Part shown: positions 1 to 53,550 of the stretch, one piece after another
Layout of the letters: each line of letters begins with the position of its first letter
Position numbering within the stretch: the stretch's first letter is position 1
DNA from: Chloroflexi bacterium GWB2_49_20
Lineage (GTDB): Bacteria; Chloroflexota; Anaerolineae; Anaerolineales; Villigracilaceae
DNA length: 64,000 bases
NCBI GenBank assembly: GCA_001796335.1
Contig: MGMF01000026.1
Span: 62,001 to 126,000, forward strand
Reading direction: 5' to 3'
Program-made: the position numbers and the translations under genes
Notes under the pieces: model-generated
Databases searched by the model: none
What the model was told of the DNA's origin: nothing
The model's input: only the letters and a program-made list of their open reading frames with translations

Positions 1-1
1 G

Positions 2-35054: not shown

Positions 35055-36077
35055 CTAGAATCCGTCAGCAAAGGCATCTACGAGTGGCCGGATATCCAAC
35101 ATCAGCGGGAAAAGGATTGGACAGGTTACCCCTGCGTCCACATATTCGCGGACTTTCGCTCGACATTCTGCAGATGTACCGACTGCCATCAATCCACGTA
35201 CCACTTCATCCGGGATGACATGGCTGGCTCGGACGTAATCTGCTTCGGTGGCTGGCCAACTCACAATTTTTTGTACTTTTTCAAGTAATTCATCACTTAC
35301 GCCGCTTGCCTTCATGATGTGAGGTTCGGTTGCCAGGTAGTATGCTACAAGTTTTTTGCCTTCCAGCATTGCTGCTTCGGGATCTTCGTCTGAGAGGGAA
35401 CAGGCGAGTAGTTCGGGACGGTCAATTTGAGCAAGAGTCTTTCCTGCTTTCCTGGCTCCATTCTCTACCAGGGCAACTGCCCTCTTGATATAGTCAACCG
35501 AAACGACATAGTTCAGGACAACCCCATCAGCGATTTCTCCTGCCAACTCCAGCATTTTATCACCCGTGGCACCAATGTAGATCGGTATATCGCGAGGAGA
35601 TTTATCTCCGTAGGCCACATCCAACGATACCCTATCGAGATGAACAAATTCGCCTTGATAGGTCACTTCTTCCATTGTGAAAAGCTTGCGAATGGATTCT
35701 ATGTTTTCTCGCATCGCTTGGAGGGGTTTGCGACGCTCTACGCCGACCCGGCTGGCAATAGGTTCCCACCATGCGCCAAGACCTAACATAAGACGTCCTT
35801 TCCCATTCACTTTTCCCCCCAGTTCCCACATCGAACTCCATGTAGCTGCGATAACAGCCGGATTTCGTGTCCAGATGGGCAAAACACCAGAACCAAATTT
35901 CATCCGTTTTGTGATAGCTAGAAATGCACTCATCATGACCACGCAGTCGCGTGCCAGGCGAGTATCTGCCTGCCATATCTCACTGAAACCTCGCTCCTCA
36001 GCGTATCGGACGATATCCAACTCAGATTGTATCTCGTGCTTATCCTGTAAGTATAAAGCAACTCTCTGTGACATCAT
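35055..36077 (-). CDS. LLM-class (Mer-like) F420-dependent oxidoreductase 1
   Basis: 340 residues, a luciferase-like TIM barrel. The segments [38 protein letters not shown] and [26 protein letters not shown] match the methylene-tetrahydromethanopterin reductase (Mer)/F420-dependent group rather than FMN luciferases. It is the first gene of the minus-strand operon with the hydantoinase and amidohydrolase and is transcribed divergently from the XRE-AOR operon. It could reduce or oxidise the heterocycle with F420, or act on a folate-bound one-carbon unit; sequence alone does not decide. GGAGG precedes the ATG on the minus strand. Confidence 0.85.
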
Positions 36078-36320: not shown

Positions 36321-36388
36321 CCAATAAATTAAATTTAAGGTTATTATCCACAATTTATCTAATTAACGGTTTTAGATTGGGTGAATTT

Positions 36389-37009
36389 ATGATGAGTAAA
36401 TCGCATACCAGCCACGCGATAAGGCAAAGCAGGCAAGAGCTAGGCCTGAGTTTGCGTGAGTTGGCTCGCCGCACAAACCTGACAGCATCTTTCCTCTCTC
36501 AGGTTGAAAACGGAAAAACCAATGTATCTCTTGATTCATTACGACGTATCTCAGAGGCTTTAAATGTTTCGATACTTACATTGATTCCAAGTCAGTCTAT
36601 TACTGATCGAGATGAATCAACGATTGAAAGTACTACCGTAGATGAAATCAGTTTTAAGCGAAAGGTTTATTCACCAGTAGTCCGGAATGATGCGCGTGTT
36701 GAGCTTACACTCCCAGGGCACGGTATAACCTACCAATTATTAACCCAAGATTTAAATAGAAAAATGGAAGCGATTTTAGGTTGTCTTGATCCGGGAAGCG
36801 GAAATATTGCCAGACCATTGCGCGAACCTACCGAAGAATTTATCTATGTTCTTTCTGGAAAGCTGTTGGTTGAATTGGAATCGGGAGAGTCTATACTTAT
36901 GGCCGGCGACTCGATCTATTTTGAAGGATTATCTCTCCATCGATTGGAATGCGCCTCACAAGATGAACCAGTTCGATGGATTTCGGTGTTCACTCCGGCG
37001 GTTTTCTGA
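36389..37009 (+). CDS. XRE-family regulator with C-terminal cupin domain (1)
   Basis: 206 residues from the ATG at 36389, with GGGTGA just upstream; a TTG at 36377 is possible. HTH_3 at about 5-60 (LGLSLRELARRTNLTASFLSQVENGKTNVSLDSLRRISEALN) is followed by a cupin (about 120-200, REPTEEFIYVLSGKLLVELESGESILMAGDSIYF). Such regulators sense small molecules bound in the cupin. It leads the ferredoxin-AOR-MoaD-transcarbamylase operon and is flanked by the divergent promoter with the 9-bp inverted repeat. It probably controls both operons. Confidence 0.9.
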   Translation: MMSKSHTSHAIRQSRQELGLSLRELARRTNLTASFLSQVENGKTNVSLDSLRRISEALNVSILTLIPSQSITDRDESTIESTTVDEISFKRKVYSPVVRNDARVELTLPGHGITYQLLTQDLNRKMEAILGCLDPGSGNIARPLREPTEEFIYVLSGKLLVELESGESILMAGDSIYFEGLSLHRLECASQDEPVRWISVFTPAVF

Positions 37010-37037
37010 TGAGTTATTACTTTATGATAGGTTGCTC

Positions 37038-37574
37038 ATGTTGATCAAGGTTAATCCTGAATTGTGTACGGGATGCAGGGCTTGCGAAGAGTTCTGTAGT
37101 ATCAATCAGGAAGGGTTAATAAATCCGGAATTATCAAGAATACATGTCTATAAGGATTATGTTAATAATATTTTTTTGCCCATTTTGTGTGTGCCTTGCT
37201 CTGAAAAACCTTGTATTTCAGCTTGTCCAGAAGAACAAGCTATTATTTTGGATAAGAACACAGGAGCAGTCATTATTCAGGAGGAATTTTGCACGGGATG
37301 CAGCAAATGTATTCGAGCTTGTGAAATAGGCGCTATCGGATTCCTAAAACAAAAAGGGCGAGGTAAGAAAGAAAAAGCGGTTGCCGTCAAATGTAACCAA
37401 TGCAATGGTGACCCTTGGTGTGTAAAAGTCTGTGAACCGCAAGCTCTTCAATATATTGAATCAAACTCTGAAATGGACGGACAAGTAATATTTGATCAGC
37501 TCTGTTCAGATTTGTCGCAATTGGATCCGAATTTTTATGGAACTGGGATTGGGAGGGGGATTCGAAAAAAATGA
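37038..37574 (+). CDS. Polyferredoxin, four [4Fe-4S] cluster electron-transfer subunit of AOR 1
   Basis: 178 residues from the ATG at 37038, 28 bases after the XRE stop. The longer open frame back to 36786 lies inside the XRE gene and has no similarity to the family. Cysteine groups: CTGCRACEEFC, CVPCSEKPCISAC, CTGCSKCIRAC and CNQCNGDPWCVKVC, which give four clusters as in HycB/AorX-type proteins. It should carry electrons from the aldehyde oxidoreductase to ferredoxin or another acceptor. Its stop overlaps the AOR start by 4 bases (ATGA), supporting a tight complex. Confidence 0.9.
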   Translation: MLIKVNPELCTGCRACEEFCSINQEGLINPELSRIHVYKDYVNNIFLPILCVPCSEKPCISACPEEQAIILDKNTGAVIIQEEFCTGCSKCIRACEIGAIGFLKQKGRGKKEKAVAVKCNQCNGDPWCVKVCEPQALQYIESNSEMDGQVIFDQLCSDLSQLDPNFYGTGIGRGIRKK

Positions 37575-39562
37575 GTCCATTTCCATATACTGGATACGCT
37601 GGAAAATACTTACGAGTCAACCTTACGACCAAGGATATCAGTATATATGATTTGCCTGAAGAATGGGCAGAACTCTACCTGGGTGGGAATGGGATTGGGA
37701 CAAAGATTCTTTGGGATGAAGTTCCACCCGAAGTTGATCCACTCAGTCCGGAGAATAAATTGATATTAGCTACCGGTCCTTTATGTGGCGGACCGATGCC
37801 CAACTCATCGAGAGTTGAGTTTATTGCTAAATCACCGTTGACCGGTATTTACGGAGATTCCAACGCAGGGGGCTGCTTGGGACCCGAATTGAAATTTGCA
37901 GGGTATGATCTGGTTATTTTTGAGGGACATTCAAGTTCTCCAGTGTATTTATTAATTAAAGATGATTTGGTGGAGTTGCGTGATGCTTCGCATCTTTGGG
38001 GTTTGGGAGGATACGAGACTGAGACCTGGTTGCAGCAAGAGCTCCACGATCCTCAAGTGAAGACTGTCGTTATTGGACCGGCAGGTGAAAACCTGGTCCG
38101 TTATGCGGCAATTATGGTGTCCTTTAGTCGCCATGCTGCCCGCTCAGGCATGGGAGCGGTAATGGGTTCAAAGAATCTCAAAGCAATAGCTGTACGTGGA
38201 ACCAGGGGAATCCACTTGCATGATCCGATTGGCCTGAGAGATTATTCCTACAAGCTCCACCAAATATTGCGTAAAAACGAGTTCTTTACCGGCGTAAAAA
38301 GTTTCGGTACACCCGGGTTGGTGAGTCTCATGAACCCGATGGGGCGCTTTCCCACCAAGAACTTCCAATATGGCAGCTTTGAAGGGTTCAAAGAAATCTC
38401 AGGTGAAACTCTAAAACAGGAACACTTTGTCCGGGATATTGCCTGTTTTGATTGCCCTATTGGATGCGACAAAACATATTCCTACGTTGGCGAAGATAAC
38501 CAAGAGGTAAAAACTTTTAGTGTTGAGTATGAGACTCTTAATTCGCTGGGTGCTGGTGTCCTGAATCGCGATCTATCGACTGTACTCAAGGGAAATGTAA
38601 TTTGTGATGACCTTGGAATGGATACAATGTCAGCCGGGAGAGCTATCTCTTTTGCCATGGAGCTGGCAGAGAAAGGCATTTTATCAACAGCGGAATGGGA
38701 TGGCCTAGATCTCTCGTGGGGTAACGCACATACAATCCTTGAATTACTACGTCGCATCGCTTTCAAGGAAGGTTTCCTTGGGAATTTATTAGCGGAAGGT
38801 GCAGCTCGGGCGGCCAAAATCCTTGGTCGCAACGCGGATCGTTATGCCATGCATGTGAAAGGTCAAGATATCTCTGCCCAGGATGGCCGGGCACAACAAT
38901 CCATGGGATTGGCTCACGTTACCTCATCTCGAGGTGCTGACCACTTAAAAGCATTTCCTGTAATTGATGAGACGGGATATCCATCTGAGGGTGTTCGGCG
39001 GTACGGTGAGAAATACATGCCTGAATTGATCGACCCATTGGCAACTCGTTATAAAGCCTTTATAGTCAAGGATGGTGAGGATTTTGGTGCGATTGTAGAT
39101 TCGAGTGGAAATTGTAAATCAGGTGGGACTTTCGTTATGTCGGAAATATATTGGAAGGAACAGGCGAAAGCCATTCATTTGATGACAGGCATGGAAATTG
39201 ATGAAGAAAAGCTGAAGATAATTGGAGAACGGATATACAACCTACAGCGCAGCTACAATGCCATTCATGGAATTTCGAAATCCGATGATGTCCTCCCTTG
39301 GCGCATGACACAAGTGCCATCCCCTTCAGGAAATGCAAAAGGAAGTATCTGTCATCTTGAAATAATGCTTCCTCAATACTACACCTTACGCGGCTGGGAT
39401 TCTGACACTGGAACTCCGACAACGGAAACCCTGAAACGTCTTGGCCTAGAAGCGATAGTTGATAAATTAAATGAATCTTTCAGATCAGGATCCGGAGCAC
39501 AGGTAAGAGCTGCACTAGGCTGGGCTGAGCCTTACACTGGTCCTGTAGAAGATGAATTATGA
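37571..39562 (+). CDS. Aldehyde:ferredoxin oxidoreductase family protein 1 (tungsten/molybdenum bis-pterin)
   Basis: 663 residues. The N-terminal domain (YAGKYLRVNLTTKDIS, GGNGIGTKILWDE) and middle domain match the AOR family. Cluster ligands are CxxCxxxC at about 291-298 (CFDCPIGC) with a fourth cysteine near 515 (SSGNCKSGG). The family oxidises aldehydes to acids with ferredoxin, using tungsten; members with other substrates exist. Here it sits between its own polyferredoxin (4-base overlap) and a MoaD-like protein (4-base overlap). The true substrate may be an aldehyde released from a heterocycle, or a ring carbon. Confidence 0.93.
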   Translation: MSPFPYTGYAGKYLRVNLTTKDISIYDLPEEWAELYLGGNGIGTKILWDEVPPEVDPLSPENKLILATGPLCGGPMPNSSRVEFIAKSPLTGIYGDSNAGGCLGPELKFAGYDLVIFEGHSSSPVYLLIKDDLVELRDASHLWGLGGYETETWLQQELHDPQVKTVVIGPAGENLVRYAAIMVSFSRHAARSGMGAVMGSKNLKAIAVRGTRGIHLHDPIGLRDYSYKLHQILRKNEFFTGVKSFGTPGLVSLMNPMGRFPTKNFQYGSFEGFKEISGETLKQEHFVRDIACFDCPIGCDKTYSYVGEDNQEVKTFSVEYETLNSLGAGVLNRDLSTVLKGNVICDDLGMDTMSAGRAISFAMELAEKGILSTAEWDGLDLSWGNAHTILELLRRIAFKEGFLGNLLAEGAARAAKILGRNADRYAMHVKGQDISAQDGRAQQSMGLAHVTSSRGADHLKAFPVIDETGYPSEGVRRYGEKYMPELIDPLATRYKAFIVKDGEDFGAIVDSSGNCKSGGTFVMSEIYWKEQAKAIHLMTGMEIDEEKLKIIGERIYNLQRSYNAIHGISKSDDVLPWRMTQVPSPSGNAKGSICHLEIMLPQYYTLRGWDSDTGTPTTETLKRLGLEAIVDKLNESFRSGSGAQVRAALGWAEPYTGPVEDEL

Positions 39563-39846
39563 GTGAGATAACTGTTTCTATAAGCTATTTCAACATCCTA
39601 GCTAGTTATGCAGGCACAAGGAAGGTTGAGGTGTCCTTACCAGAAGGAGCGACCCTTCGCCATGTGGTGGAACACCTTGACAAAAATGCCTCACAACAGC
39701 TCCACCAGGTTCTATTTCAGAAAGGAGAATTCAGCAAATATATAAAAATATTTTTGAATCAACAGCTTGTAGGTGAAGGTAGATTGGAAACCCCACTTAA
39801 AAATGGGGATGAAATGATGATCTTTCCGGCTATTGCCGGTGGGTAG
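39559..39846 (+). CDS. MoaD/ThiS-family sulfur-carrier protein
   Basis: 95 residues, a ubiquitin-like fold, ending in the required Gly-Gly (PAIAGG). It follows AOR 1 with a 4-base overlap. MoaD carries the thiocarboxylate sulfur used to build the pterin dithiolene. Dedicated copies next to AOR genes are common and probably serve tungstopterin assembly. Confidence 0.9.
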   Translation: MSEITVSISYFNILASYAGTRKVEVSLPEGATLRHVVEHLDKNASQQLHQVLFQKGEFSKYIKIFLNQQLVGEGRLETPLKNGDEMMIFPAIAGG

Positions 39847-39889
39847 ACCCAGCAAGTAATCACACACTTTGTTTTTTAGGAGCCAATAC

Positions 39890-40948
39890 ATGAAGACAAC
39901 AGGATTTAAAGGCCGTGATTTCCTGGCCGAAACAGACTTCACCAAAGAGGAAATTGAAACTGTTTTATCGGTAGCAGAAGATTTGAAGCTCGAACGGGCA
40001 AAGGGAATTTACCATGATGATATGCTGCGCAGTAAAACACTTTTCATGATTTTTTACAATCAGTCTTTACGCACTCGCAACTCTTTCGAAGCCGGCATGA
40101 CCCAACTCGGTGGACATGCCCATTACCTGGATCCAGATAAGATATACAAACCAGCCATGGAAGGTCGGGAAGTGGCCTACGCTACGGAACGAGTCTCGGA
40201 TGTGGCGCGTGTTCTGGATCGGATGGGTGATGCAATCGCTATTCGTTGTTATGGCGATCCGGTGGATTGGGAATATGGTGGCGCGCACGAAATGTTGAGG
40301 GAATTTGCCCGTTGGGCGGATATCCCGGTTCTAAATATGGAAGATGATGTGTACCATCCTTTCCAGGGATTGGCAGATGTCCTGACCGTAAAAGAAAAAT
40401 TTGGTGGGTTCAAAGGGGTTAACTTCACCATGTCGTGGGCTTATTCACCCAGCATTCATAAACCGCGGGCTGTTCCGCAATCAGCCATCTTGTATGCGAC
40501 CATGATGGGCATGAATGTGACCCTCGCTCATCCCCAGGGAATGGAATTGGCTCCAGATATCATGACACAATGTGAAGAATATGCCCAGGCTGCTGGGGGT
40601 TCATTCCGATTGACCAATGATTTCAAAGACGGTGTGGAGGGTGCTCATGTGGTTTATCCCAAAGCCTGGTGTGCAACTCCAATTTTCCAACCCCCGATAG
40701 GTGAAGCCGACGTTAAGAAAACCCAGGCGATCTTCGACCAGAATAAAGATTGGATCTGCACCAGCAAGATCATGGATATGGCAGCCAAAAATGCCATCTA
40801 TATGCATTGTCTACCCTGCGATCGCGGTTTTGAAGTGACCAATGAAGTGATCGATAAGACCGAGGGCAAGGGATGGCTTTCAGCAGCATTTGATGAGGCT
40901 GAAAACCGGCTGCATGTGCAAAAAGCAGTGATGTCGCTTGTGATGTAA
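39890..40948 (+). CDS. Knotted transcarbamylase (YgeW/AOTCase-like)
   Basis: 352 residues from the ATG at 39890, with TAGGAG upstream. Carbamoyl-phosphate motifs are intact: SLRTR (S59-R63), HPFQG and HCLPCD. The segment SWAYSPSIHKPRAVPQS followed by GMNVTLAHPQG matches the knotted branch containing N-acetylornithine transcarbamylase and E. coli YgeW; the C-terminus DEAENRLHVQKAVM is AOTCase-like. With no arginine genes nearby and a hydantoinase in the same island, the likely role is phosphorolysis of an N-carbamoyl product to carbamoyl phosphate. No carbamate kinase is present in the window. It is the last gene of the AOR operon. Confidence 0.85.
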   Translation: MKTTGFKGRDFLAETDFTKEEIETVLSVAEDLKLERAKGIYHDDMLRSKTLFMIFYNQSLRTRNSFEAGMTQLGGHAHYLDPDKIYKPAMEGREVAYATERVSDVARVLDRMGDAIAIRCYGDPVDWEYGGAHEMLREFARWADIPVLNMEDDVYHPFQGLADVLTVKEKFGGFKGVNFTMSWAYSPSIHKPRAVPQSAILYATMMGMNVTLAHPQGMELAPDIMTQCEEYAQAAGGSFRLTNDFKDGVEGAHVVYPKAWCATPIFQPPIGEADVKKTQAIFDQNKDWICTSKIMDMAAKNAIYMHCLPCDRGFEVTNEVIDKTEGKGWLSAAFDEAENRLHVQKAVMSLVM

Positions 40949-41276: not shown

Positions 41277-41927
41277 ATGGAAATCTCTCCGGAATATCAA
41301 AATCTTATCAATGCAATTGAAAACGGCGATTCACAAGAAGGCGTGTCTGAAGCAAAGAAGCTCAATGATTCAGGTCACAAAATAGAGGACATTTTCGAAA
41401 AGGCTATTGTCCCTTGTTTGCAGGATATCGGCGATCGTTTTAGTCGATTGGAACTATTCCTACCCGAAATGATGGAAGCTGCTGATGTAGTTAAGGCAAT
41501 TCATAAGGAAATGGAAAGCAGACTGGAAGCAGGACAGAAAGTAGCCTCTTCAGGGAAAGTAGTGATTGGTACAGTTTTTGGTGATATTCACGATATTGGC
41601 AAGAATATTGTTTCTTCCATGTTGGAAGTAAATGGATTTGAAGTCTACGACTTGGGAATCAACGTTTCCGCCCAGGATTTTGTACGCCGTGCTCGTGAGA
41701 CAGATGCAGATATTATTGCCATGTCTTCCCTACTGACGACTTCTATACCCTATATGTCTGATGTGATTGAACTGCTTCAATCCAACGAAAATGACCGTAA
41801 GAGATTTAAGGTCCTGGTTGGCGGTGGACCAATGACACCAGAGGCAGCTAAGAAGATTGGCTCAGATGGCTTCGGCAAGGATGCCAGCGATGCTGTCAAA
41901 CAAGCCAGAGCTCTGGTAACAAAATAA
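41277..41927 (+). CDS. Corrinoid (B12-binding) protein, MtmC/MtbC/MttC type
   Basis: 216 residues, the normal length of methylamine corrinoid proteins. An N-terminal four-helix cap (about 1-85) precedes the cobalamin domain. The lower-ligand motif DxHxxG is D103-I-H105-D-I-G108 in FGDIHDIGKN; later SxL (SSLLTTS) and GGGP are present. It carries the methyl group on cobalt from the adjacent methyltransferase to a folate- or thiol-dependent acceptor. The MtmB-like gene starts 69 bases downstream, so they form one operon and a cognate pair. A corrinoid activator is not in the island; one may lie at the left edge of the window. Confidence 0.93.
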   Translation: MEISPEYQNLINAIENGDSQEGVSEAKKLNDSGHKIEDIFEKAIVPCLQDIGDRFSRLELFLPEMMEAADVVKAIHKEMESRLEAGQKVASSGKVVIGTVFGDIHDIGKNIVSSMLEVNGFEVYDLGINVSAQDFVRRARETDADIIAMSSLLTTSIPYMSDVIELLQSNENDRKRFKVLVGGGPMTPEAAKKIGSDGFGKDASDAVKQARALVTK

Positions 41928-41996: not shown

Positions 41997-43373
41997 ATGC
42001 AAAATATGACTCGCCTGATGGACATCCTAGATCGCTCCTATAATGGACCATTGACCGACGAACATGAGTTTGATTTGAGATTCGTAGCGGATGGGATCGC
42101 CAAAGTTGTTAAGAAATACAACATCAAATTTGATAAAAGCCACATTATCCAAACAGATGATGCTTTAAATGATCGCGTCTGGCAAGCCGCGATGGAATTT
42201 TTTGAGTATTGCGGCATCTACAATACAAGTACCCAGCGACGGATGATTTTTACACGCCGGGAAATAGAAGATGCGATTAAAGCTGCTCCAGCCCAAGCCA
42301 TAATAGGTGAAGGAGCAGACGCCCGTATCGAATACCACCGGGAAGTTGAGGATCCTCGCCCGCCTCTTATCGTCGGAGGACCAATCGGGACCAATTTGAA
42401 CGAGGAGATGTACCTCCCTGTGATGCAGAGCTATATCCAGGAATCGGTCATTGACACCATTACGTCTGGAACATTGATGACCACTCACGGACGTGACCCT
42501 CGTACAAAATCTCCATTGGAAATTGTGGCTGCCTGGGAAGAAGTTGATCTCCTTTTCACGGCTGCCAAGCGTGCCGGTCGACCGGGGATGGCAATTGGGG
42601 CAGTGCAGATGGGTTTGAGCGATATTGGCTATCTCTCTGCGATCAGTCGTTTCGGTTACCGGCCTTGTGATTGGCACATGATTGCCCTGGTCGGTGAAAT
42701 GAAGACCAATAATGAATTGCTTAACAAACTGGCTCATTCTGTACGTCAGAATGGAATTATTCACGGATTTTATAACCCGATCTATGGTGGGTTGGCTGGC
42801 GGAGAAGAGGGGTTGGCGGTGATCATTACGGCTGGAATGATCGCTTTGCAGGTTGTCTATATGGCAGTTCAACATTCTACTTGTCCCACCCATCCATCCA
42901 TATTCAATGACACAGCTCCCCAGATACTGCGTTCGGTAAGCGTTTCTACTGCTGCCATTTCCCGTAATTCGAACATCATGAGTACTGTGATGACCTCCCC
43001 GGTGGGTGGTCCGCTCACTGATACCCTTCTCTATGAATGTGTAGCCATGGCTACTACAGCATCCTCATGCGGAGTCACGCAGATTCTGGGAGTTCGTTCA
43101 GCTGTAGGAGTGGTGCCGCATCACTGTACAGGGTTGGAAGCCCGGTTCAATGGTGAAGTTGGACGTGCAGCAGCTGGTCTGAGCCGCGATAGTGCAAATA
43201 CAATCGTTGAAAAGGCTGTTGCCAAATACTTACCGGTTATGGATACCAAACCGGTAGGGAGACCATTCTGGGAAGCTTATAATCCCATCACAATAAAACC
43301 TCGTCAGGATTGGTTGGACATTTACGATCGGGTAAAGGAAGAAGCCAGAAGTTGGGGCTTGCCACTCACCTAA
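41997..43373 (+). CDS. MtmB-family (monomethylamine methyltransferase-like) protein lacking pyrrolysine
   Basis: 458 residues, the same length as Methanosarcina MtmB as I remember it. Collinear matches include ECGIY/YCGIY near residue 73, GGPxG near 127, KSPxEVLAA near 171 and the C-terminal GLEARFNGEVGRAAAGL. In MtmB the pyrrolysine is residue 202 in AGRPGMGV-O-GPETS. Here the aligned stretch is AGRPGMAI-G201-AVQMG and the codon is GGG (42597-42599), so no UAG is read. It probably moves a methyl group from an unknown N-methyl compound to the corrinoid protein. Non-pyrrolysine members are well known in the MttB family; I do not recall characterised ones in the MtmB family. Confidence 0.88.
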   Translation: MQNMTRLMDILDRSYNGPLTDEHEFDLRFVADGIAKVVKKYNIKFDKSHIIQTDDALNDRVWQAAMEFFEYCGIYNTSTQRRMIFTRREIEDAIKAAPAQAIIGEGADARIEYHREVEDPRPPLIVGGPIGTNLNEEMYLPVMQSYIQESVIDTITSGTLMTTHGRDPRTKSPLEIVAAWEEVDLLFTAAKRAGRPGMAIGAVQMGLSDIGYLSAISRFGYRPCDWHMIALVGEMKTNNELLNKLAHSVRQNGIIHGFYNPIYGGLAGGEEGLAVIITAGMIALQVVYMAVQHSTCPTHPSIFNDTAPQILRSVSVSTAAISRNSNIMSTVMTSPVGGPLTDTLLYECVAMATTASSCGVTQILGVRSAVGVVPHHCTGLEARFNGEVGRAAAGLSRDSANTIVEKAVAKYLPVMDTKPVGRPFWEAYNPITIKPRQDWLDIYDRVKEEARSWGLPLT

Positions 43374-43669: not shown

Positions 43670-44236
43670 ATGAAGAACAAATGGGTAACAAAAGACATTG
43701 TGACCTTGGCGGTCATCGCAGTAGTATTTGGTCTACTGGGAGCAGGTTGGGGGTACATTTGGAATCTGGCCTACGCCATTCCAAATATTGGAGCTTGGTT
43801 TTCTTCTTTGATAAGTTTCCCCTGGTTCATAACTCCTCTTCTTGCTTTCTACTTGATCCGCAAGCCAGGAGCTGCCCTGTATAGTCAACTATTAGCGGGT
43901 GTTGTCGCCATTCTGGCGGGACATCCAGCTGGTGTAGTGGCTTTTGGGTGGTATGTCATTCAAGCAGTTGCTGTTGAAGTTGTATTTGCAATATTCCGCT
44001 ACAAGAGATGGGATATGTTGCCGATGCTGATAGCTGCAGAGATGTGCGCCTTGGAATACGCCTGGGGTTTATTCTACTTCCAGATCTACAACTATGGTTT
44101 CGCTGCCTGGTTCTGGCCGTGGATCGCCATGTTTGCAACAGCCTGGATGGCAGCACCGCTCACGATCTGGCTTGGCAAAGCCCTGGCAAAGACCGGATTG
44201 GCTGGGTCCTCTGTTAAAGAAATCGGTGGCGATTAA
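43670..44236 (+). CDS. ECF transporter substrate-binding (S) component, YkoE-like
   Basis: 188 residues, five to six membrane segments. The blocks WVTKDIVTLAVIAVVFGLLGAGWGYIWN, RKPGAALYSQLLAG and EVVFAIFRYKRWDMLP match the YkoE family, whose known members bring in the thiamine pyrimidine HMP or related pyrimidines. Here there is no thiamine riboswitch, and the neighbours are a methyltransferase and Mer-like and AOR enzymes. The cargo may therefore be the island's own heterocyclic substrate. A and T components follow directly. Confidence 0.85.
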   Translation: MKNKWVTKDIVTLAVIAVVFGLLGAGWGYIWNLAYAIPNIGAWFSSLISFPWFITPLLAFYLIRKPGAALYSQLLAGVVAILAGHPAGVVAFGWYVIQAVAVEVVFAIFRYKRWDMLPMLIAAEMCALEYAWGLFYFQIYNYGFAAWFWPWIAMFATAWMAAPLTIWLGKALAKTGLAGSSVKEIGGD

Positions 44237-44358: not shown

Positions 44359-46089
44359 GTGTCGATTATTGCAGAAAATTTATCCGTTTGGGTCCACGAG
44401 GATCGTCCGATGCTATCGAATGTATCCTTTGAGATCAAAGATGGGGAGTTTGTTTTGGTACTTGGAACCAGCGGAAGTGGTAAATCGGTTTTTTCATTAT
44501 GCTTTAATGGAATAATCCCTCAGGTCGTGCCTGTTTACTATTCAGGAAAAATTCTCGTTAACGGTCGCAACCCTCAGGAAACGCCGGTTTCTGAAATGGC
44601 AACTGAGGTGGGTTTGGTCTTCCAGGATCCTGATGCACAATTGGTTGCCATGTATGTCGAAGACGAAGTCGTCTTTGGACCTGAGAATCTCATGTTCGAA
44701 CGAAATGAGATTGGCGAGAGACTTAAGAATTCTCTTGAAATGGTTGGCATGTGGGATTTCAAAGATATGCATACCTGGAGCCTCTCTGGAGGACAAAAAC
44801 AACGGGTTGCAATCGGTTCAGTATTATCGATGAAACCAAAGATATTGGTATTGGATGAACCAACCTCAAATCTTGACCCAGCCGGGACACGCAGCGTTTT
44901 TGAACTACTTTCCCAGTTGCGTAGCCAATCCGACCTGACTGTTATTGCCATCGAACACAAGATTGATGAGTTGATCGAACAAGTAGACCGGTTACTCGTC
45001 TTTGATAAAGGTCAATTGATCGCAAATGGTCACCCCCGCCAGGTGATTTCTCAGCAAGGCGATGAATTGATGAAAAAAGGAATTAATCTGCCACAAATTT
45101 CCGAAATGGCTTTGGGAGCAAGAAGTAGAGGGCTGGCAATCCCGGATGACAAATTTCCTTTGACAAGTAAGGATCTGACCGAGTTATTACCCGCCACGAA
45201 TGAATTTATTCCAACTCAAAGAGAAATAGTGAGCAATCAAAATGGAAAATCCCCCCAGGTGAGTTTCGAGCATGTCACATTCAGCTACCCTTATCGCTCG
45301 CCTGCACTGAACGACATTTCTTTGAATATCTACCCAGGTGAATTCCTTGCCATTGTCGGTCAAAATGGGGCTGGAAAGACGACTTTAACAAAATTGATGG
45401 TTGGACTTCTAAAAGCCACAAAAGGGCACGTTCTATTTGAAGGGCAGGACATCGCAAAAATGCCTCTTGAACGCCTAACTGAAAAAGTAGGCTATGTATT
45501 CCAGTATCCGGATAACCAGTTGGTAACAGATACGGTTTTCGACGAGGTAGCATTTTCAATGCGGATTCGTGGTTATTCAGAAGATAAAGTAAAGAATACC
45601 GTTGATGAAGTATTAATGGAAATGGAGTTGACAAGTCTAATCAACCGACATCCTTTAACACTCAGCATGGGAGAAAAGCGACGTTTAAGTGTGGCCACGA
45701 TGCTGGTCTTGGATCAGGACATCATCATTCTGGATGAGCCTACCATGGGAATGGATTGGGGGCATACCGTCTCAACCATGAAGATCTGCCAAAAAATTCA
45801 AAAACAGGGCCACACGATTATAATGGTAACCCATGACATGCGGGTTGTATCCAATTGGGCGGATCGCGTTATCGCCATGACAGATGGCAAGGTGCTACTG
45901 GATAGTGCACCACAAGCTTTCTTCGTGGATGAAATTTCTTTGGAAAAAACCCATCTCTCGCAGTTGCCTGTTTGCAGGTGGCGTAACTGCAAGCTAAATT
46001 CGCAAGCCCGCTGTACAACCTGTGTGGAAGACAGCTTGAACTTTCTACTCGACCCAAAACGACAACTTAAACAAGAGGTGGCAATATGA
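44359..46089 (+). CDS. ECF transporter ATPase, two ABC domains fused (YkoD-like)
   Basis: 576 residues from a GTG start with AAGGGAG upstream. Two ABC modules: Walker A GTSGSGKS (36-43) and GQNGAGKT (about 334-341). Signatures are LSGGQKQR in the first and LSMGEKRR in the second; both Walker B motifs (LVLDEP and IILDEP) are intact. The C-terminus carries a four-cysteine cluster (C539, C544, C552, C555) in CRWRNCKLNSQARCTTC that is not a standard ABC feature and could bind zinc or an Fe-S cluster. It drives uptake with the S and T subunits; the T gene overlaps its stop by 4 bases. Confidence 0.93.
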   Translation: MSIIAENLSVWVHEDRPMLSNVSFEIKDGEFVLVLGTSGSGKSVFSLCFNGIIPQVVPVYYSGKILVNGRNPQETPVSEMATEVGLVFQDPDAQLVAMYVEDEVVFGPENLMFERNEIGERLKNSLEMVGMWDFKDMHTWSLSGGQKQRVAIGSVLSMKPKILVLDEPTSNLDPAGTRSVFELLSQLRSQSDLTVIAIEHKIDELIEQVDRLLVFDKGQLIANGHPRQVISQQGDELMKKGINLPQISEMALGARSRGLAIPDDKFPLTSKDLTELLPATNEFIPTQREIVSNQNGKSPQVSFEHVTFSYPYRSPALNDISLNIYPGEFLAIVGQNGAGKTTLTKLMVGLLKATKGHVLFEGQDIAKMPLERLTEKVGYVFQYPDNQLVTDTVFDEVAFSMRIRGYSEDKVKNTVDEVLMEMELTSLINRHPLTLSMGEKRRLSVATMLVLDQDIIILDEPTMGMDWGHTVSTMKICQKIQKQGHTIIMVTHDMRVVSNWADRVIAMTDGKVLLDSAPQAFFVDEISLEKTHLSQLPVCRWRNCKLNSQARCTTCVEDSLNFLLDPKRQLKQEVAI

Positions 46090-46925
46090 GCGGCGGCACA
46101 CAATTTGCCTATAGGCAGGGCAAGTCATTCATGCACGGCCTGGACCCAATATCAAAAATGATCTGGTTAGGGTGCATGAGTATGTTGATCATATTGCTGA
46201 ATATTGCCTGGATTCAACTTATTACTTTTGGTGTCATACTCATTATGGCTTTGACCCTTGCGCGTTTATCGCCTGGCTTTATCTGGCGGTTTTCACGATA
46301 TATTTACCTTTTAGGTGGAATGATGTTTGTACTACAAATGTTTTTTGTACAAGGTGACCAAACATTGTTCTTATTGGGTCCATTGAGAGCCTCTATTCGC
46401 GGGGCTTTGATCGGCGCCGCGGCTGGTTTTCGTGTCATCAACCTCGCCAGTACTTCAATGATCTTCCTGGTGACAACAGCTCCGCGTGATTTAGCTATTA
46501 GTGCCCATGAGAAGTTAAAATTACCGGCTAGGGCTACACAGGCTTTATTCCTTGCGTTACGATTTTTACCTTTGTTGGAAGAAGAATATGCAGATCTTTC
46601 TGCAGCCCATACGGTCAGGGGAGCAGGGGCAGGCAAAAGCCTGAAAGATCGAGTCCAACGTATGGGACGTTTTACGGTACCCTTCCTTTTTGGAGCACTG
46701 CGACGAGCACAGACGACAGGATTAGCTATGGATTCAAAAGCCTTTGGAGCATATCCTACAAAGGTTTTTTACCACCAGGTTAGGTATCCTCTGAAAGGGA
46801 AAGTTTTCGCAATGCTTTGGGTCCTATTGTTGATATTATCCATTTACCTCCTCGCTTCAGGAAAGTTAGTGATTATTGGTGATTTGCGTCTGGCTTTCCA
46901 GGTTTTAATCGCCCAGGTGGTTTGA
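46086..46925 (+). CDS. ECF transporter transmembrane (T) component (YkoC-like)
   Basis: 279 residues. About five to six membrane segments, and the coupling region AHTVRGAGAGKSLKDRV with A-R-G type motifs that contact the ATPase, then MDSKAFGAYP. It joins the YkoE-like and YkoD-like subunits in one transporter. It starts inside the stop codon of the ATPase gene. Confidence 0.9.
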   Translation: MSGGTQFAYRQGKSFMHGLDPISKMIWLGCMSMLIILLNIAWIQLITFGVILIMALTLARLSPGFIWRFSRYIYLLGGMMFVLQMFFVQGDQTLFLLGPLRASIRGALIGAAAGFRVINLASTSMIFLVTTAPRDLAISAHEKLKLPARATQALFLALRFLPLLEEEYADLSAAHTVRGAGAGKSLKDRVQRMGRFTVPFLFGALRRAQTTGLAMDSKAFGAYPTKVFYHQVRYPLKGKVFAMLWVLLLILSIYLLASGKLVIIGDLRLAFQVLIAQVV

Positions 46926-46999
46926 TCTAGTAATATTCAGGCCAATTATTTAAGCAGTACTCATGAAGTTGATGATCCTTGTATTTCGGAGGACATAAG

Positions 47000-47989
47000 A
47001 TGATCAAAAGTGGAATCGGGATTAACCAATCGCCAGGAGTAAAAGTACAGCAGATGGTTGAAATCTGCCAGGAAGCTGAGCATTTTGGATACGACAGCTG
47101 CTGGGCAGCCGACCAGGGATTGGATACTCGGGATATTTTTGTCACTCTGGCAGCAATTGCCCAAAAAACAACCACTTTACGTCTGGGGACCGGTATCACC
47201 CATCCATTTACTCGACACCCAGCGGTGACTGCTTCAGCGATAGCCAGCTTGGACGAGTTATCTGGAGGGCGGGCTTTTCTGGGTGTCAGTGCTGGTGGCA
47301 TTGACACCTTTATCCCATTGGGTGTGGATCGCCCCAAACCGGTCGCTGCAACGCGTGAAATGATCCAGATTTCCCGAGCCCTATTTAAGAATGAGGCGGT
47401 GAATTTCGATGGGGAGTTGTTTCACTTGAAAGGTGCCCGCATCGATTCCGGTCGATCGGATATCGAGATCTGGATGGCTGCCAGAGGACCCAAGATGATC
47501 GCCTTGGGTGGTGAAATGGCGGATGGAATCCTTGTAGATTTCATCCACAAGGATTTCCTGCAGGATTTTATTGACCAGATTCAAGTGGGTGCCAAAATCT
47601 CAGGCAAGAAGCCTAAGATCTGCTATTCAACTATGATTGTTACGAATGAAAGGGCGTTGGAAGAAGTCCGACCCCTTATGTTCTATCGATTGTTGGAACC
47701 ACCACAAAATGTTAGGGAAGCTATTCACCTGACTCAGGAAGATACGGAGAGCTTGCGCCGAGAAGCTGCCCGTGGAGGTTTGCTTGCAGCTGGCAAGCTG
47801 ATCAAAGATGAATGGGTGGAACCTTTTGTCTTTATGGGTTCAATTGAAAAATGCGCAACTGAACTAACACAATTCATAAAGAAGTACAAAATCGACGAGT
47901 TCATGTTGCCCATTATGGGTGTCGAATCAGCCCCTGAGATTATGTCGGATGTGGCTAAAGTGATGACACTTGTAAATAATGGTAGTTGA
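47000..47989 (+). CDS. LLM-class (Mer-like) F420-dependent oxidoreductase 2
   Basis: 329 residues from the ATG at 47000, preceded by GGAGGA. GTGITHPFTRHPAVTASAIASLDELSGGRAFLGVSAGG closely follows the methylene-tetrahydromethanopterin reductase pattern, and IEIWMAARGPKMIALGGEMADGILVDF completes the F420 site. The enzyme may oxidise a methyl- or methylene-carrier, or a substrate-derived group, with F420. Encoded between the transporter and AOR 2, it belongs to the same transcription unit by spacing (74 bases after, 36 before). Confidence 0.87.
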   Translation: MIKSGIGINQSPGVKVQQMVEICQEAEHFGYDSCWAADQGLDTRDIFVTLAAIAQKTTTLRLGTGITHPFTRHPAVTASAIASLDELSGGRAFLGVSAGGIDTFIPLGVDRPKPVAATREMIQISRALFKNEAVNFDGELFHLKGARIDSGRSDIEIWMAARGPKMIALGGEMADGILVDFIHKDFLQDFIDQIQVGAKISGKKPKICYSTMIVTNERALEEVRPLMFYRLLEPPQNVREAIHLTQEDTESLRREAARGGLLAAGKLIKDEWVEPFVFMGSIEKCATELTQFIKKYKIDEFMLPIMGVESAPEIMSDVAKVMTLVNNGS

Positions 47990-48025: not shown

Positions 48026-49930
48026 GTGGCCATCACAGCATTTGTGGATCTGTCAACCGGATCAATACGGTACGAAAAAACCGATCCAATTCTAAAAGAA
48101 CATTACCTGGGTGGTCGGGGGATAGGTGCCAAGCTTCTTTTTGATCTCGTAGGTCCGAGTGTTGAACCTTTTGATCCAGAGAATTACCTGATATTTACTA
48201 CAGGCCCTTTGAGCGGAACCTCCTGGCCATTGGCATCCCGCTATCATGTTACCTTCAAATCACCCGAGACCAATGCTTACGGGTACGCCAATTCAGGTGG
48301 GCATTTTGGTCCAGAACTGGCAAGAGCAGGATTCGATGTTTTAGCTGTAACCGGACAATCCCAGACACAAGTTTACCTGCAAATCAAGGATGAGAAGATC
48401 GAGATTCTGCCTGCGGATAAACTCTGGGGGAAGACGGTGAGCCAGGTACAAGAAACACTCCTCGGTGCAGATTCAAAAAATGGTAAAAGCGGGCGGATCC
48501 TTTGCATTGGACCAGCAGGAGAACATCTTGTACGGATTTCAGCGATCATGAACGATTATTCACGCGCTGCAGCCCGCGGTGGACCGGGAGCTGTGATGGG
48601 ATCAAAAAACCTGAAGGCGATCCACGTAAAAGGTAGACGACATATCCAAACCGATCCGGATTTTATTACAGAATTGCGTACCACCAGCAAACACCTTTTT
48701 CAGGATCCCAAAAATCGCTTTATTAAGGCGGATGGTACGGTTTTTCTTATGCGACCCAAGAATATGACCGGTGATCTGCCTGCGAAAAACCACCAGCTGT
48801 CACAAGTGCCATTTATTGATGATATTGATGCCGAAGCGCTCAATTGCTATCGAATCGACCAACCGGGCTGTGAGATGTGTGTGATCAAATGCTCAAGGAT
48901 ATCGCAAGTAAAGGAAGGTCCATACGCGGTGGAAGTGGAAGGACCAGAATATGAAACAACGGATGCACTTGGCCCGATGTGCTGGAATGGGAATCCTGAA
49001 GTGATCATGAAAGCCAATGCTCTTTGTAATGAATTTGGTCTGGATACAATTTCTACTGGTGTAACAATTGCTTTTGCAATGGAATGCCACCAAAATGGTT
49101 TACTTAACGATTCAGATTTAACCTTGGAATGGGGAGATCCACAAACCATTCTAGGGTTAATTAAAAAAATATCCCTTCGGGAAGGAATTGGAGATATTTT
49201 AGCAGATGGGGTTAAACGTGCAGCAGCTAAAATTGGTGGCAGAGCAGGGTATTTTGCAATGCATGTCAAAGGACTTGAAATGCCTCGTCAGGAACCTCGT
49301 TTCTCTAAGGGATTTGGGTTGGGGCATGCAACTTCCAACCGTGGTGCAGACCATCTTTATGGATTGCCAGCGATTGATCTGGGTGGAAACTGGGAATTGG
49401 CGCGCAAAGTCTTTCCTGCCGAAATTGTGGATCGTTTGATGGATCCGGATGATGAGTCTTTCAAGCCGGATATGTTGGTTTATGGGGAACATTATTGTGC
49501 GGTGACCGATGCAATAGGTGTATGCAAATTCAGCACGGTGCAGGAATACAGTTTGCTTCCTGAAGATTTCGTTCCAGGGTTAAGAGCTCTTGGTATCGAT
49601 GTCACCACAGAGAAATTGGTAGAAATTGGTGAAAGGATTATCAATCTTGAACGACTCTACAATGTTCGTCAGGAATTTGATAGATCTGATGACCAACTTC
49701 CCAGGCGTTTCATTGAAGAACCTCTGACATTACGTGCCAATGTGACTGATCCCGAGACAAACCGTACAGTATTAGGGGAAGTAATTCGAGTTGGACATAT
49801 AAATGATTTTGATGCCATGCTTGATCGCTATTATGATTTGCGGGGTTGGAGCCGCAATGGTCGGCCAACAGAAGCGACCCTCGAAAGATTAGGGTTGATG
49901 AAAGAATCAAAAGGAATCTTGCTTGAATAA
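48026..49930 (+). CDS. Aldehyde:ferredoxin oxidoreductase family protein 2
   Basis: 634 residues from a GTG start with GGCGGAGG upstream. Same family as AOR 1: GGRGIGAKLLFDL, CEMCVIKC (about 282-289) and a later cysteine near 500 (AIGVCKF). No polyferredoxin or MoaD is encoded beside it, so it may share the AOR 1 partners. Two different AORs in one island suggest two aldehyde-level intermediates, or one AOR used for another oxidation. Confidence 0.93.
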   Translation: MAITAFVDLSTGSIRYEKTDPILKEHYLGGRGIGAKLLFDLVGPSVEPFDPENYLIFTTGPLSGTSWPLASRYHVTFKSPETNAYGYANSGGHFGPELARAGFDVLAVTGQSQTQVYLQIKDEKIEILPADKLWGKTVSQVQETLLGADSKNGKSGRILCIGPAGEHLVRISAIMNDYSRAAARGGPGAVMGSKNLKAIHVKGRRHIQTDPDFITELRTTSKHLFQDPKNRFIKADGTVFLMRPKNMTGDLPAKNHQLSQVPFIDDIDAEALNCYRIDQPGCEMCVIKCSRISQVKEGPYAVEVEGPEYETTDALGPMCWNGNPEVIMKANALCNEFGLDTISTGVTIAFAMECHQNGLLNDSDLTLEWGDPQTILGLIKKISLREGIGDILADGVKRAAAKIGGRAGYFAMHVKGLEMPRQEPRFSKGFGLGHATSNRGADHLYGLPAIDLGGNWELARKVFPAEIVDRLMDPDDESFKPDMLVYGEHYCAVTDAIGVCKFSTVQEYSLLPEDFVPGLRALGIDVTTEKLVEIGERIINLERLYNVRQEFDRSDDQLPRRFIEEPLTLRANVTDPETNRTVLGEVIRVGHINDFDAMLDRYYDLRGWSRNGRPTEATLERLGLMKESKGILLE

Positions 49931-50051: not shown

Positions 50052-50585
50052 TTGATTGGGGAACGAATTAAAAAGCGACGAGTTGAATTGGGGCTAAGCC
50101 TCAGAGATTTGGCTGAAATCATAAGTATGACAGCCGGCTATCTTAGCCGGGTCGAAAATGATCAGGTTTCCCCTTCTTTGGATGCCTTGCAAGCGATTGC
50201 GCAAGCATTACAGGTACCCATGTTTTTTTTCCTGAACTCTGGCCCCTTAGATCCGATAATAAGGGAAGGATCACGGAGAGTTCTTTATTTCCCAGACTCA
50301 AAAATTGGTTACGAATTACTTACCCCTGATCTTGTTCACCAGATGATGTGTTTGATGATCCGAATGGAACCAGGTGTAAAGAGGATAACCGTTCCACTGG
50401 CCAAGCCGAACGAACAATGGATGTTCGTGATTAAAGGGAGTTTGGAGATTGATATCGACGGAACTGTTTATACTCTTCACCCTGGAGATAGCATTTATTA
50501 CGATGGCAACTTATTGCGAGATTTCTCCTCCGTCGGACAAGAGGAACTGGAACTTATTTGTTGCATTACCCCGCCAGCTCTGTGA
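50052..50585 (+). CDS. XRE-family regulator with C-terminal cupin domain (2)
   Basis: 177 residues from a TTG start with AAAGGAG 10 bases upstream. HTH_3 at about 3-58 (LGLSLRDLAEIISMTAGYLSRVENDQVSPSLDALQAI), cupin at about 105-172 (LEIDIDGTVYTLHPGDSIYYDGNLLRDF). It shares the architecture of the first XRE-cupin protein and precedes amidohydrolase 2 by 60 bases. It is likely a substrate-responsive regulator of the right part of the island. Confidence 0.9.
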   Translation: MIGERIKKRRVELGLSLRDLAEIISMTAGYLSRVENDQVSPSLDALQAIAQALQVPMFFFLNSGPLDPIIREGSRRVLYFPDSKIGYELLTPDLVHQMMCLMIRMEPGVKRITVPLAKPNEQWMFVIKGSLEIDIDGTVYTLHPGDSIYYDGNLLRDFSSVGQEELELICCITPPAL

Positions 50586-52575: not shown

Positions 52576-52612
52576 GAATAATATTAGCTACCCTAGTCCA
52601 AAGATATTAGAA
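52576..52612. repeat. 37-bp direct repeat, copy 2, overlapping integrase 3' end
   Basis: Identical to copy 1. It includes the integrase stop codon at 52588-52590 and the codons for NSNIFGLG. Confidence 0.9.
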
Positions 52613-53550
52613 TTATCAACAGGCCCTGCTCGTCGGTGAGCAGCTTCTGTATCCTGATAAGTTTGTTTTAAGTAGCGCTGTAAGACCGTGATCCCCTCAT
52701 GTCCCATCAATTTTGCAAGTGTGTATAGATCAGTTCCATTCCGGAGCATAGATAATGCAAAGGCTCTCCGGAAATCATGTGGGGATGGTTCTACCACCTT
52801 CGCTTCAGAAGCCCTTCGACGAAGGACAGCTCGCAGTCCATCATACTTCAATCTCTCAGAACCATAACGAGGATCGGATACCCACAATGCAGAGTTATTA
52901 TCATCGCGATGTTTAAGGTACTTTCTCAGTGCTCGCCGGGAATATTTTCCCAGATAAACCTGTCGCGGCTTACTCCCCTTGCCTTGTCGGATAAGAATAT
53001 CTCCTCGCGCCTGGTTTATATCATCCAGGTCAACATCGAGCAGCTCATTTGCGCGTGCTCCGGTATCTAGCAGGCAGAGTAATAAGGCTGCATCTCTGTC
53101 TCCCGTGAAGGTGCCTTTCTCACAGGTTTTGACCATACTAGCGACATTCTCAAATGACACTGGCTCCAGGGGATCTGTTGGTACCTTGGGTGCTCTTACT
53201 TTACCGATAGGATTTGACCAAAAAGATGGCTCTACCTCATCATCATACCAATTCAGGAAAGCACGCAGGGCTCTAAATGCTGCATGCCTTCCACCGGGAT
53301 TGTGCCCAGTGGTCTCCAGGAAAAGCAAATATTGCCGGATCATGGTAGGTGTTATTTGGCTGATGCGATCGACCGCAATTGCTTCACAGTATCCAATGAA
53401 GAGTTTTAGCTTCTTACTATAAAAATAGATCGTGCCTTCTGCAGCCCCGCGTGCCTTTCGGTCATTCAAGAAGGCTTCCGCCCACACTAATAATGAATCA
53501 TCAAAAGCTGAAGTATATTTTGTTTGTACGTTTTCGATAATTTTTGCCAT
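52588..53550 (-). CDS. Tyrosine recombinase/integrase 1
   Basis: 320 residues. Core-binding SAM-like domain (about 17-105) and catalytic domain (about 130-310) with R166 (GARANEL), K191 (GKGSKPR), H258 and R261 (HDFRR), H284 (MGHEG) and Y293 (LQRYL). All six catalytic positions are present, so it should be active. It resembles Xer-type integrases of integrative elements. It points toward the tRNA-derived repeat and carries the 37-bp direct repeat in its last codons. Confidence 0.93.
   Translation of the reverse strand: MAKIIENVQTKYTSAFDDSLLVWAEAFLNDRKARGAAEGTIYFYSKKLKLFIGYCEAIAVDRISQITPTMIRQYLLFLETTGHNPGGRHAAFRALRAFLNWYDDEVEPSFWSNPIGKVRAPKVPTDPLEPVSFENVASMVKTCEKGTFTGDRDAALLLCLLDTGARANELLDVDLDDINQARGDILIRQGKGSKPRQVYLGKYSRRALRKYLKHRDDNNSALWVSDPRYGSERLKYDGLRAVLRRRASEAKVVEPSPHDFRRAFALSMLRNGTDLYTLAKLMGHEGITVLQRYLKQTYQDTEAAHRRAGPVDNSNIFGLG

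Follow-up and report, generated by a model that had tools for sequence, protein, structure and literature searches.

The window analyzed here, a 64,000-nucleotide stretch of Chloroflexi bacterium GWB2_49_20 (contig MGMF01000026.1, positions 62,001 to 126,000), contains an ORF encoding a full-length MtmB-superfamily methyltransferase (MtxB) without pyrrolysine (Pyl). Tentatively, and with a probability just short of even, the protein can be read as an enzyme that uses a corrinoid to N-demethylate a methylated, purine-like heterocycle, whose ring would then be reduced and cleaved by the enzymes of the surrounding gene module. The protein, its key codon, and its partner are located as follows.

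41997-43373, + strand: non-Pyl MtmB-superfamily methyltransferase (MtxB, gene mtmB) with Gly201 in the Pyl column (PF05369, alignment to 1l2q/1tv2, structure model, and structural match)
42597-42599, + strand: codon GGG (Gly201), aligned with pyrrolysine 202 (alignment and codon reading)
41277-41927, + strand: cognate corrinoid protein MtxC, with B12-binding_2 and B12-binding domains and DIHDIG at residue 103 (PF02310 and PF02607)

A full-length MtmB homolog that has lost the pyrrolysine site

The 458-amino-acid ORF is open, without an internal stop. The MtmB model PF05369 matches residues 7 to 455 over profile positions 3 to 450 of 450, with 327 bits against a cutoff of 25, and it is matched only once in the 3.37-Mb, 99.4% complete genome. 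phmmer aligns residues 8 to 455 with residues 10 to 456 of Methanosarcina barkeri MtmB1 (1l2q/1tv2) at an E value of ~6e-70, with 32% identity over 447 aligned residues; the alignment is collinear, and its sole gap is one residue, far from the Pyl site. An AlphaFold model of the protein, built from 28 aligned window and locus sequences, has a pLDDT of 94.6 and a pTM of 0.94. It matches 1tv2 with a TM score of 0.96 and an rmsd of 1.3 Å in Foldseek and 1nth with a Z score of 60.7 and an rmsd of 1.4 Å over 452 residues in VIA-align, compared with a Z score of 24.6 for the best MttB-type structure. The profile, phmmer, and structural matches bear out the full-length collinearity with MtmB proposed in the initial annotation, which had been made from the sequence alone.

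In the phmmer alignment, the Pyl column (X/K202 of M. barkeri MtmB1) falls on Gly201, where the initial annotation had placed it. Four residues which we take to line the MtmB active site around Pyl, Glu229, Glu259, Gln333, and Tyr335, correspond to Met228, Phe258, Met332, and Ser334 in the window protein. The initial annotation had also raised pyl genes and an in-frame UAG; codon 201 is GGG, and the PylS model (TIGR02367) reaches 21 bits at best in the organism's own genome against a cutoff of 178, in a genome-wide search that covered PylS and not pylBCD or tRNA-Pyl. The same model passes its cutoff in M. acetivorans. Internal stops are absent from the MtmB matches listed in four homolog searches (14, 17, 4, and 17 matches, with some repeats). 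A missed amber codon or a sequencing error was rejected, since GGG and TAG are two bases apart, the listed relatives have no inner stop, and PylS is below its cutoff; an amber reading of codon 201 is neither needed nor supported.

Relatives of the window protein

PF05369 is present in 7 of 400 genomes sampled from the phylum, relatives of the window protein occur in 14 of 152 genomes of the family, and an E value of 1e-90 is passed in 4 of 396 genomes of the class, the own genome being counted each time. A contig scan with the window protein found two relatives only, both in Chloroflexi metagenome-assembled genomes (MAGs), and plasmid-borne relatives were looked for and not found. The first alignment kept 44 rows, after rows were missed by a crude frame choice or dropped as near-repeats; the 48-row tree consists of these rows plus five re-read rows minus one repeat, and L126 was added later to give 49 rows. 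The fragments L009 and L079 were excluded from all alignments.

In the 48-row tree, the nearest neighbors of the window protein are L002 and L086, the latter being the copy of L003 in G869; each is 58% identical to it (support of 100/99). L081 and L084 join next (100/99), within a 12-row clade (100/99). The Pyl column of this clade contains Gly in eight rows, Met in two, and Thr in two, with Met in the two closest relatives, and Gly also occurs in two rows of another clade. Over the 48 rows of the 49-row set that remain when M. barkeri is excluded, the column contains Asn (11), Gly (10), Leu (10), a gap (4), Thr (3), Val (2), Glu (2), Met (2), Ile (2), Ser (1), and Tyr (1). This mixture rules out glycine as a mark of the clade, and the Gly-type clade envisaged in the initial annotation did not emerge when the alignment and tree were run. 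Trp180 and Asn260 are found in 12 of 12 rows of the window clade and in 0 of 37 other rows. Pyl-type MtmB lies on a long branch with a fork support of 86/72, and its joining point is unsettled. In G868 (Chloroflexi RBG_16_57_11), seven MtmB genes, all non-Pyl, lie on a single contig of 53 kb, C2 (L080 to L082), and G869 (LaPlata MAG) has ten MtmB matches, one of which is a fragment.

Loss of Pyl in MtmB is of an already known kind. The non-Pyl MtmB homolog MtqB, from Methanococcoides methylutens Q3c, is reported to methylate cobalamin from tetramethylammonium, choline, and monomethylamine at 37, 42, and 11 nmol/min/mg, respectively, and the tree of 1,061 MtmBs described with it spans Pyl and non-Pyl proteins, including members of unknown function (PMC13044021, 2026). 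A non-Pyl MtmB-superfamily protein of strain DCMF, Ga0180325_111810, was flagged in 2022 (PMC9768040), and mtmB is described among the methylamine-type methyltransferase genes in many MAGs, commonly of Anaerolineae (PMC11264602). The initial annotation had held that non-Pyl forms are known mainly in the MttB family, a framing that MtqB, the 1,061-sequence tree, and the DCMF protein do not support; its other suggestion, a different substrate, is supported, in that the substrate is likely to be one other than monomethylamine.

The window protein shares its fold, length, and corrinoid partner with M. barkeri MtmB (1l2q/1nth/1tv2) but differs from it at Gly201 and the four substituted positions and in a genome whose PylS match is below the cutoff. 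MtqB, compared by its description and not by sequence, likewise belongs to the MtmB superfamily, lacks Pyl, and has a corrinoid protein of its own, but it is an archaeal tetramethylammonium/choline enzyme with a Met/Cys active-site signature, whereas the window gene is bacterial and lies in a ring-degradation-like module. Ga0180325_111810, also compared by description, is a bacterial non-Pyl member of the superfamily, but it is tied by proteomics to growth on dichloromethane (PMC9768040). The non-Pyl MttB superfamily (MtgB and others) is similar in having Pyl-free members that act on another N-methyl substrate and shares a distant common fold (Z of ~24), but it belongs to Pfam PF06253 and shows 10 to 11% identity over the structural match. 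The low monomethylamine activity of MtqB would suit a weakly active or decayed methyltransferase working on methylamine itself, but the open frame, the high-confidence fold, the paired MtxC, the conservation of Trp180 and Asn260 throughout the clade, and the replacement of what we take to be the MtmB catalytic residues make this extremely improbable.

Corrinoid partner and helper enzymes

MtxC has the DxHDxG motif, in the form DIHDIG, and ends 69 bp upstream of mtmB; its nearest named family is MtbC (NF041607, 169 bits, under the cutoff of 350). The motif and the PF02310 and PF02607 domains confirm the adjoining corrinoid protein that had been noticed initially. The genome also holds candidates for the second methyltransferase and the activase. 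A pterin-binding methyltransferase and RACo are encoded at C26:59459-62112, with the end of the RACo gene reaching window positions 1 to 112, and the carbon monoxide dehydrogenase/acetyl-coenzyme A synthase (CODH/ACS) cluster on contig C21 has methylenetetrahydrofolate reductase (MTHFR), a pterin-binding protein, and RACo alongside. The profile matches in the genome are at C26:59459 and C5:152027 for Pterin_bind and at C26:61375 and C21:152905 for RACo. Since pterin-binding methyltransferases, RACo, CODH/ACS, and MTHFR are all encoded, a methyl group from MtmB would have a possible route to the Wood-Ljungdahl pathway.

At the left edge of the window, ~42 kb upstream of mtmB, C26:49161-62112 (L060 and L099) forms another cluster for corrinoid methyl transfer. 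Besides the C26 genes for the pterin-binding methyltransferase and RACo given above, it contains two MttB-type genes, one of them matched by Pfam and the other (L060 1162-2577) assigned, without a Pfam scan of its own, by 31% identity to the Pfam-confirmed MttB of L042, together with an M20-type peptidase and a peptide-type ABC transporter (both by eye). A homocysteine S-methyltransferase-family protein (window 158-1057) adjoins this cluster.

Gene cluster around mtxC-mtmB

The neighbors of mtxC-mtmB are listed below, with the profile match or the identity on which each assignment rests.

30637-31320, + strand: F420-dependent NADP reductase-type protein (PF03807), 72% identical to its paralog in the genome's SsnA cluster
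31589-32209, + strand: CofC of F420 synthesis (PF01983), 70% identical to its paralog in the same cluster
32244-33557, - strand: SsnA-like amidohydrolase (nearest named family SsnA, 247.6 bits, cutoff 444)
33600-35009, - strand: D-hydantoinase/dihydropyrimidinase, HyuA type (TIGR02033, 532 bits, cutoff 393)
35055-36077, - strand: luciferase-like (LLM) F420-type oxidoreductase LLM1, candidate ring reductase (profile and structure matches)
36377-37009, + strand: XRE-cupin regulator 1 (domain match; 54% in L125)
36786-37574, + strand: 4Fe-4S ferredoxin-like subunit (54 to 57% in L124, L126, and L127; ORF as listed, the true start probably lying further downstream)
37571-39562, + strand: aldehyde:ferredoxin oxidoreductase (AOR)-family enzyme AOR1 (71% in L124, L126, and L127)
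39559-39846, + strand: MoaD/ThiS-type protein (PF02597; 39 to 41% in L124, L126, and L127)
39869-40948, + strand: aspartate/ornithine-type carbamoyltransferase (OTC), candidate for phosphorolysis of a ureido group (82 to 85% in four module loci)
43670-44236, + strand: PF09819-family membrane protein (Pfam match; in Pfam, an ABC-type cobalt transport permease component)
44359-46089, + strand: fused energy-coupling factor (ECF) ATPase with two ABC domains (Pfam and NCBIfam matches)
46086-46925, + strand: ECF T component, CbiQ type (PF02361; NCBIfam CbiQ model below its cutoff)
46979-47989, + strand: luciferase-like (LLM) oxidoreductase LLM2 (nearest solved structures F420-dependent Mer)
48026-49930, + strand: second AOR-family enzyme AOR2 (65 to 70% in L124, L126, and L127)
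50052-50585, + strand: XRE-cupin regulator 2 (domain match)
50646-52025, + strand: TRZ/ATZ-family amidohydrolase, deaminase-like (N-ethylammeline chlorohydrolase model, 374 bits, below the cutoff of 609)

We take the PF09819 protein to be a YkoE-like S component (EcfS) of an ECF transporter. LLM1 was rejected as a methylene-tetrahydromethanopterin (H4MPT) reductase of a methyl-oxidation branch, as the Mer models give 158 against 276 and 155 against 349 bits and Mch has no match in the own genome. In an Rfam search of positions 30000 to 53000 at the gathering score, no riboswitch was found, the only family matched being a tRNA, and a thiamine riboswitch at the ECF genes was rejected on this ground. 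Promoter and terminator scans gave results no better than the chance level. Further downstream, judged by eye, two phage-integrase-like recombinases (52588-53550 and 58595-59545) flank a primase/helicase-like protein (54541-56994), and the segment looks like an integrated element beside the catabolic cluster. BrxA and the C-terminal part of PglZ (62787-64000, - strand; PADLOC) form the edge of a BREX-type defense system, near which a Fic-domain protein is encoded (61347-61733).

Possible relation to reductive purine breakdown

The reductive urate pathway, described in 2025, consists of XdhD, YgfK, SsnA, HyuA, YgeW, YgeY, and YgeX, and the SsnA genes of Chloroflexota are reported to co-localize instead with an F420-type LLM dehydrogenase (PMC12507026). 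The genome studied here has such a cluster on contig C21, with SsnA at 517.5 bits (over the cutoff of 444), F420 reductase, CofE, CofD, CofC, an LLM protein, a molybdopterin-dehydrogenase FAD subunit, and a molybdenum subunit nearest TIGR03313 (738 bits, below the cutoff of 1102), which may be XdhA/XdhD-like. In addition to the F420 reductase and CofC, LLM1 is a paralog of the C21 copy (51% identity); the resemblance is weaker for the SsnA-like protein (28% to the C21 SsnA) and for HyuA, which is 41% identical to a copy at another place on C21. These identities suggest that the window cluster is a second, related ring-degrading module, in which the AORs may stand where C21 has the XdhD-like enzyme.

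The cluster in the window partly resembles the urate pathway and its Chloroflexota variant: it combines a near-SsnA amidohydrolase, a hydantoinase over its cutoff, a carbamoyltransferase, and an F420-type LLM, the last in place of YgfK, but the carbamoyltransferase is below the YgeW cutoff, two AORs are present, no XdhA/XdhD-type gene was recognized in the cluster, and a corrinoid methyltransferase is added. The main text of PMC12507026 mentions neither caffeine nor aldehyde ferredoxin, and "methyl" appears there only as methylviologen (twice) and in one reference title. No corrinoid N-demethylating enzyme for purine rings was among the literature matches listed.

The module in other genomes

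Searching the class with the carbamoyltransferase matched 290 of 396 genomes at an E value of 1e-70 (own genome counted); 16 listed stretches were examined, of which several are too short to show the neighborhood (e.g., L128 and L133). The module AOR2-ferredoxin-AOR1-MoaD-OTC-SsnA-like-LLM1 recurs in part in G731, G641, G788, and G713, with identities of 39 to 41% for MoaD and 54 to 85% for the remainder, OTC being 82 to 85% identical in these four loci, the closest found. The order is AOR2-ferredoxin-AOR1-MoaD-OTC in L124; OTC-SsnA-like-LLM1-XRE, with no AOR seen, in L125 (G641); MoaD-AOR1-ferredoxin-AOR2-OTC-SsnA-like-MtmB-MtxC in L126 (G788); and LLM1-AOR1-ferredoxin-MoaD-AOR2-OTC-SsnA-like in L127 (G713). 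In this conserved module, MtmB is optional. In L127, the LLM1 ortholog (71%) directly adjoins the methenyl-H4MPT cyclohydrolase Mch (PF02289; 2193-4177).

The SsnA-like protein shows 65 to 67% identity in three module loci and 50% in G011. In G788, the MtmB ORF lies upstream of the SsnA-like ORF on the same strand with a 4-bp overlap, as in an operon, and MtxC adjoins. G011, which was reached through its MtmB, has another MtmB, MtxC, and MttB beside the SsnA-like protein, MoaD, AOR1 (55 to 59%), HyuA (46%), and AOR2 (51%). The nearest kin of the G788 MtmB is that of L036 (51%), a locus with an AOR and two TRZ/ATZ amidohydrolases. MtmBs of three lineages apparently occur in the AOR/SsnA-like setting, the tree place of the G011 MtmB being unsure because of its long branch. 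What looks new is this module setting of two AORs, ferredoxin, MoaD, carbamoyltransferase, an SsnA-like protein, and an F420-type LLM. G788 also carries a likely purine-degradation cluster (L134 9566-17079), with a paralogous carbamoyltransferase (73 to 74%), a short-chain dehydrogenase/reductase, XdhA, a TRZ/ATZ amidohydrolase, and an allantoinase-like protein.

These observations bear on the main rival explanation, a serious one though still unlikely, that the protein is an MtqB-type quaternary-amine demethylase (of tetramethylammonium, choline, or a similar cation) that lies beside a heterocycle module by chance. MtqB is the only non-Pyl MtmB with a shown function that was found (PMC13044021), and the hydrophobic site of the window protein (Met, Phe, and Tyr) could bind a cation. 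However, the genes nearby encode enzymes of ring and ureide chemistry and an ECF transporter, and no choline or betaine gene was recognized among the profiled neighbors of mtmB; the AOR/SsnA-like setting is also found around other MtmBs, in G788 and G011; and the genome also has proteins of the MttB family, which according to the cited papers includes quaternary-amine enzymes.

Neighborhoods of MtmB loci

Thirty-three MtmB loci were compared with 18 control stretches, which were left from 20 picked by contig number (not at random) after removal of two shorter than 5 kb. The loci are not independent, as L080 to L082 are pieces of one contig and nine ECF loci are close kin; the survey excluded L002 and L003, which repeat stretches of G868 and G869, and L061, which continues L034 and has XdhA, ECF, and TRZ/ATZ genes. 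Bmp-type ABC transporters were found in 10 loci (0 controls), EcfS in 9 (0), XdhA in 6 (1), TRZ/ATZ amidohydrolases in 5 (0), AOR in 3 (1), and hydantoinase in 1 (0). The controls also contained MtxC (2) and MttB (1); of 14 rows, all except XdhA, AOR, MtxC, and MttB were 0 in the controls. The AOR counts alone are no proof. Among the nine other loci of the window's 12-row clade, Bmp-type ABC transporters occur in five, XdhA in two, and TRZ/ATZ amidohydrolases in two, which again suggests nitrogen rings or nucleosides. XdhA adjoins both 58% orthologs, one of which also has a Bmp-type ABC transporter and an amidohydrolase as neighbors. Near some of the G868 and G869 MtmBs, Bmp-type ABC transporters, XdhA, adenosine-deaminase-family proteins, and amidohydrolases are encoded.

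The order MtxC-MtmB-EcfS-EcfA-EcfT, with some members missing and some at contig ends, is seen in L037, L043 to L047, L050, L051, and L062, which are from genomes of the same family and carry another non-Pyl MtmB clade with Leu in the Pyl column. It is improbable, though conceivable from this recurrence with MtmBs 33 to 34% identical to the window protein, that MtxC, MtmB, and the ECF transporter form an operon of their own for another imported compound (e.g., one like a thiamine precursor), with the AOR module unrelated. The nine ECF loci are one close clade with differing Pyl-site residues (Leu, Asp, and Tyr), there is no riboswitch in the region searched, and mtmB is 296 bp from EcfS, all of which argue against this explanation.

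Proposed function

The neighborhood points to a ureide or N-heterocycle, the chemical region to which the N-methylhydantoin, creatinine, and methylated pyrimidines of the initial annotation also belong, with purine-type rings somewhat favored. The simplest role for a methyltransferase in such a ring module would be to strip an N-methyl group from the ring before it is broken down or while this happens. The fold, the loss of the Pyl site, the pairing with MtxC, the presence of the helper enzymes, and the partly paralogous module are observed; the substrate, the sequence of reactions, and the link between MtmB and the module are proposed as follows. MtxB would be the substrate-specific methyltransferase of a three-component corrinoid system, in which cob(I)alamin on MtxC would attack an N-methyl group bound inside the MtmB barrel. 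A pterin-binding methyltransferase may then hand the methyl group to a folate-type carrier, from which it could enter CODH/ACS or be oxidized, and RACo may re-reduce the corrinoid. A ring N-H is far more acidic than that of an amine. As the nitrogen of a purine-, ureide-, or pyrimidine-type ring would be a good leaving group, no Pyl adduct would be needed, and the site could have been remodeled to Gly, Met, Phe, and Ser. After demethylation, the ring would undergo redox steps by the AOR pair and ferredoxin and F420-linked reduction by LLM1, would be opened by the SsnA-like amidohydrolase and the hydantoinase, and might finally release carbamoyl phosphate through the carbamoyltransferase.

Several observations weigh against demethylation of a purine-like ring. 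MtmB is present in only one of the four module loci reached through OTC, and the hydantoinase was looked for and not found in L124 to L127. The nine other loci of the window clade, some of which are short or at contig ends, show no AOR, hydantoinase, OTC, or EcfS, and the AOR module is therefore not what orthologs of the window protein travel with. The mtxC-mtmB pair is separated by 328 bp from OTC and by the 296 bp noted above from the ECF genes. The carbamoyltransferase is nearer to acetylornithine carbamoyltransferase (274 bits, cutoff 288) than to YgeW (167 bits, cutoff 453), and its 74% relative in L134 passes the acetylornithine carbamoyltransferase cutoff (293.5 bits), so it could be anabolic. 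In addition, the SsnA-like protein is well under the SsnA cutoff, YgeX reaches 33 bits at best in the own genome against a cutoff of 274, and an AOR-like gene (35%) lies near the C21 SsnA cluster, which means that the replacement of XdhD by AOR is not clean.

The hydantoinase and the carbamoyltransferase of the same cluster, together with two amidohydrolases, would also suit a nonaromatic N-methyl ureide (such as N-methylhydantoin or creatinine, both put forward in the initial annotation, or N-carbamoylsarcosine), with HyuA and the carbamoyltransferase handling the remainder of the molecule. This is a rather improbable substrate type, since it leaves the two AORs and the paralogy with the SsnA/F420 cluster unexplained and HyuA was not found in L124 to L127.

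Implications

MtmB is the textbook case for the existence of pyrrolysine, and knowing the role of its Pyl-free forms would reveal what the fold can do in the absence of Pyl and to which substrates Pyl gave access. As the gene cluster is defined, a short panel of compounds would suffice to test for the substrate. Should this be a methylated purine, the window protein would represent an anaerobic route of N-demethylation for such rings and would widen the reductive urate pathway. With rather less confidence than attaches to the function of this one protein, it may be proposed that the activities of Pyl-free MtmBs include N-demethylation of methylated purines or similar aromatic N-heterocycles, one of them being built, in these bacteria, into a reductive ring module based on AOR (tungsten or molybdenum) and F420, so that energy could be gained without oxygen both from the methyl group, by way of CODH/ACS, and from the ring, by way of carbamoyl phosphate.

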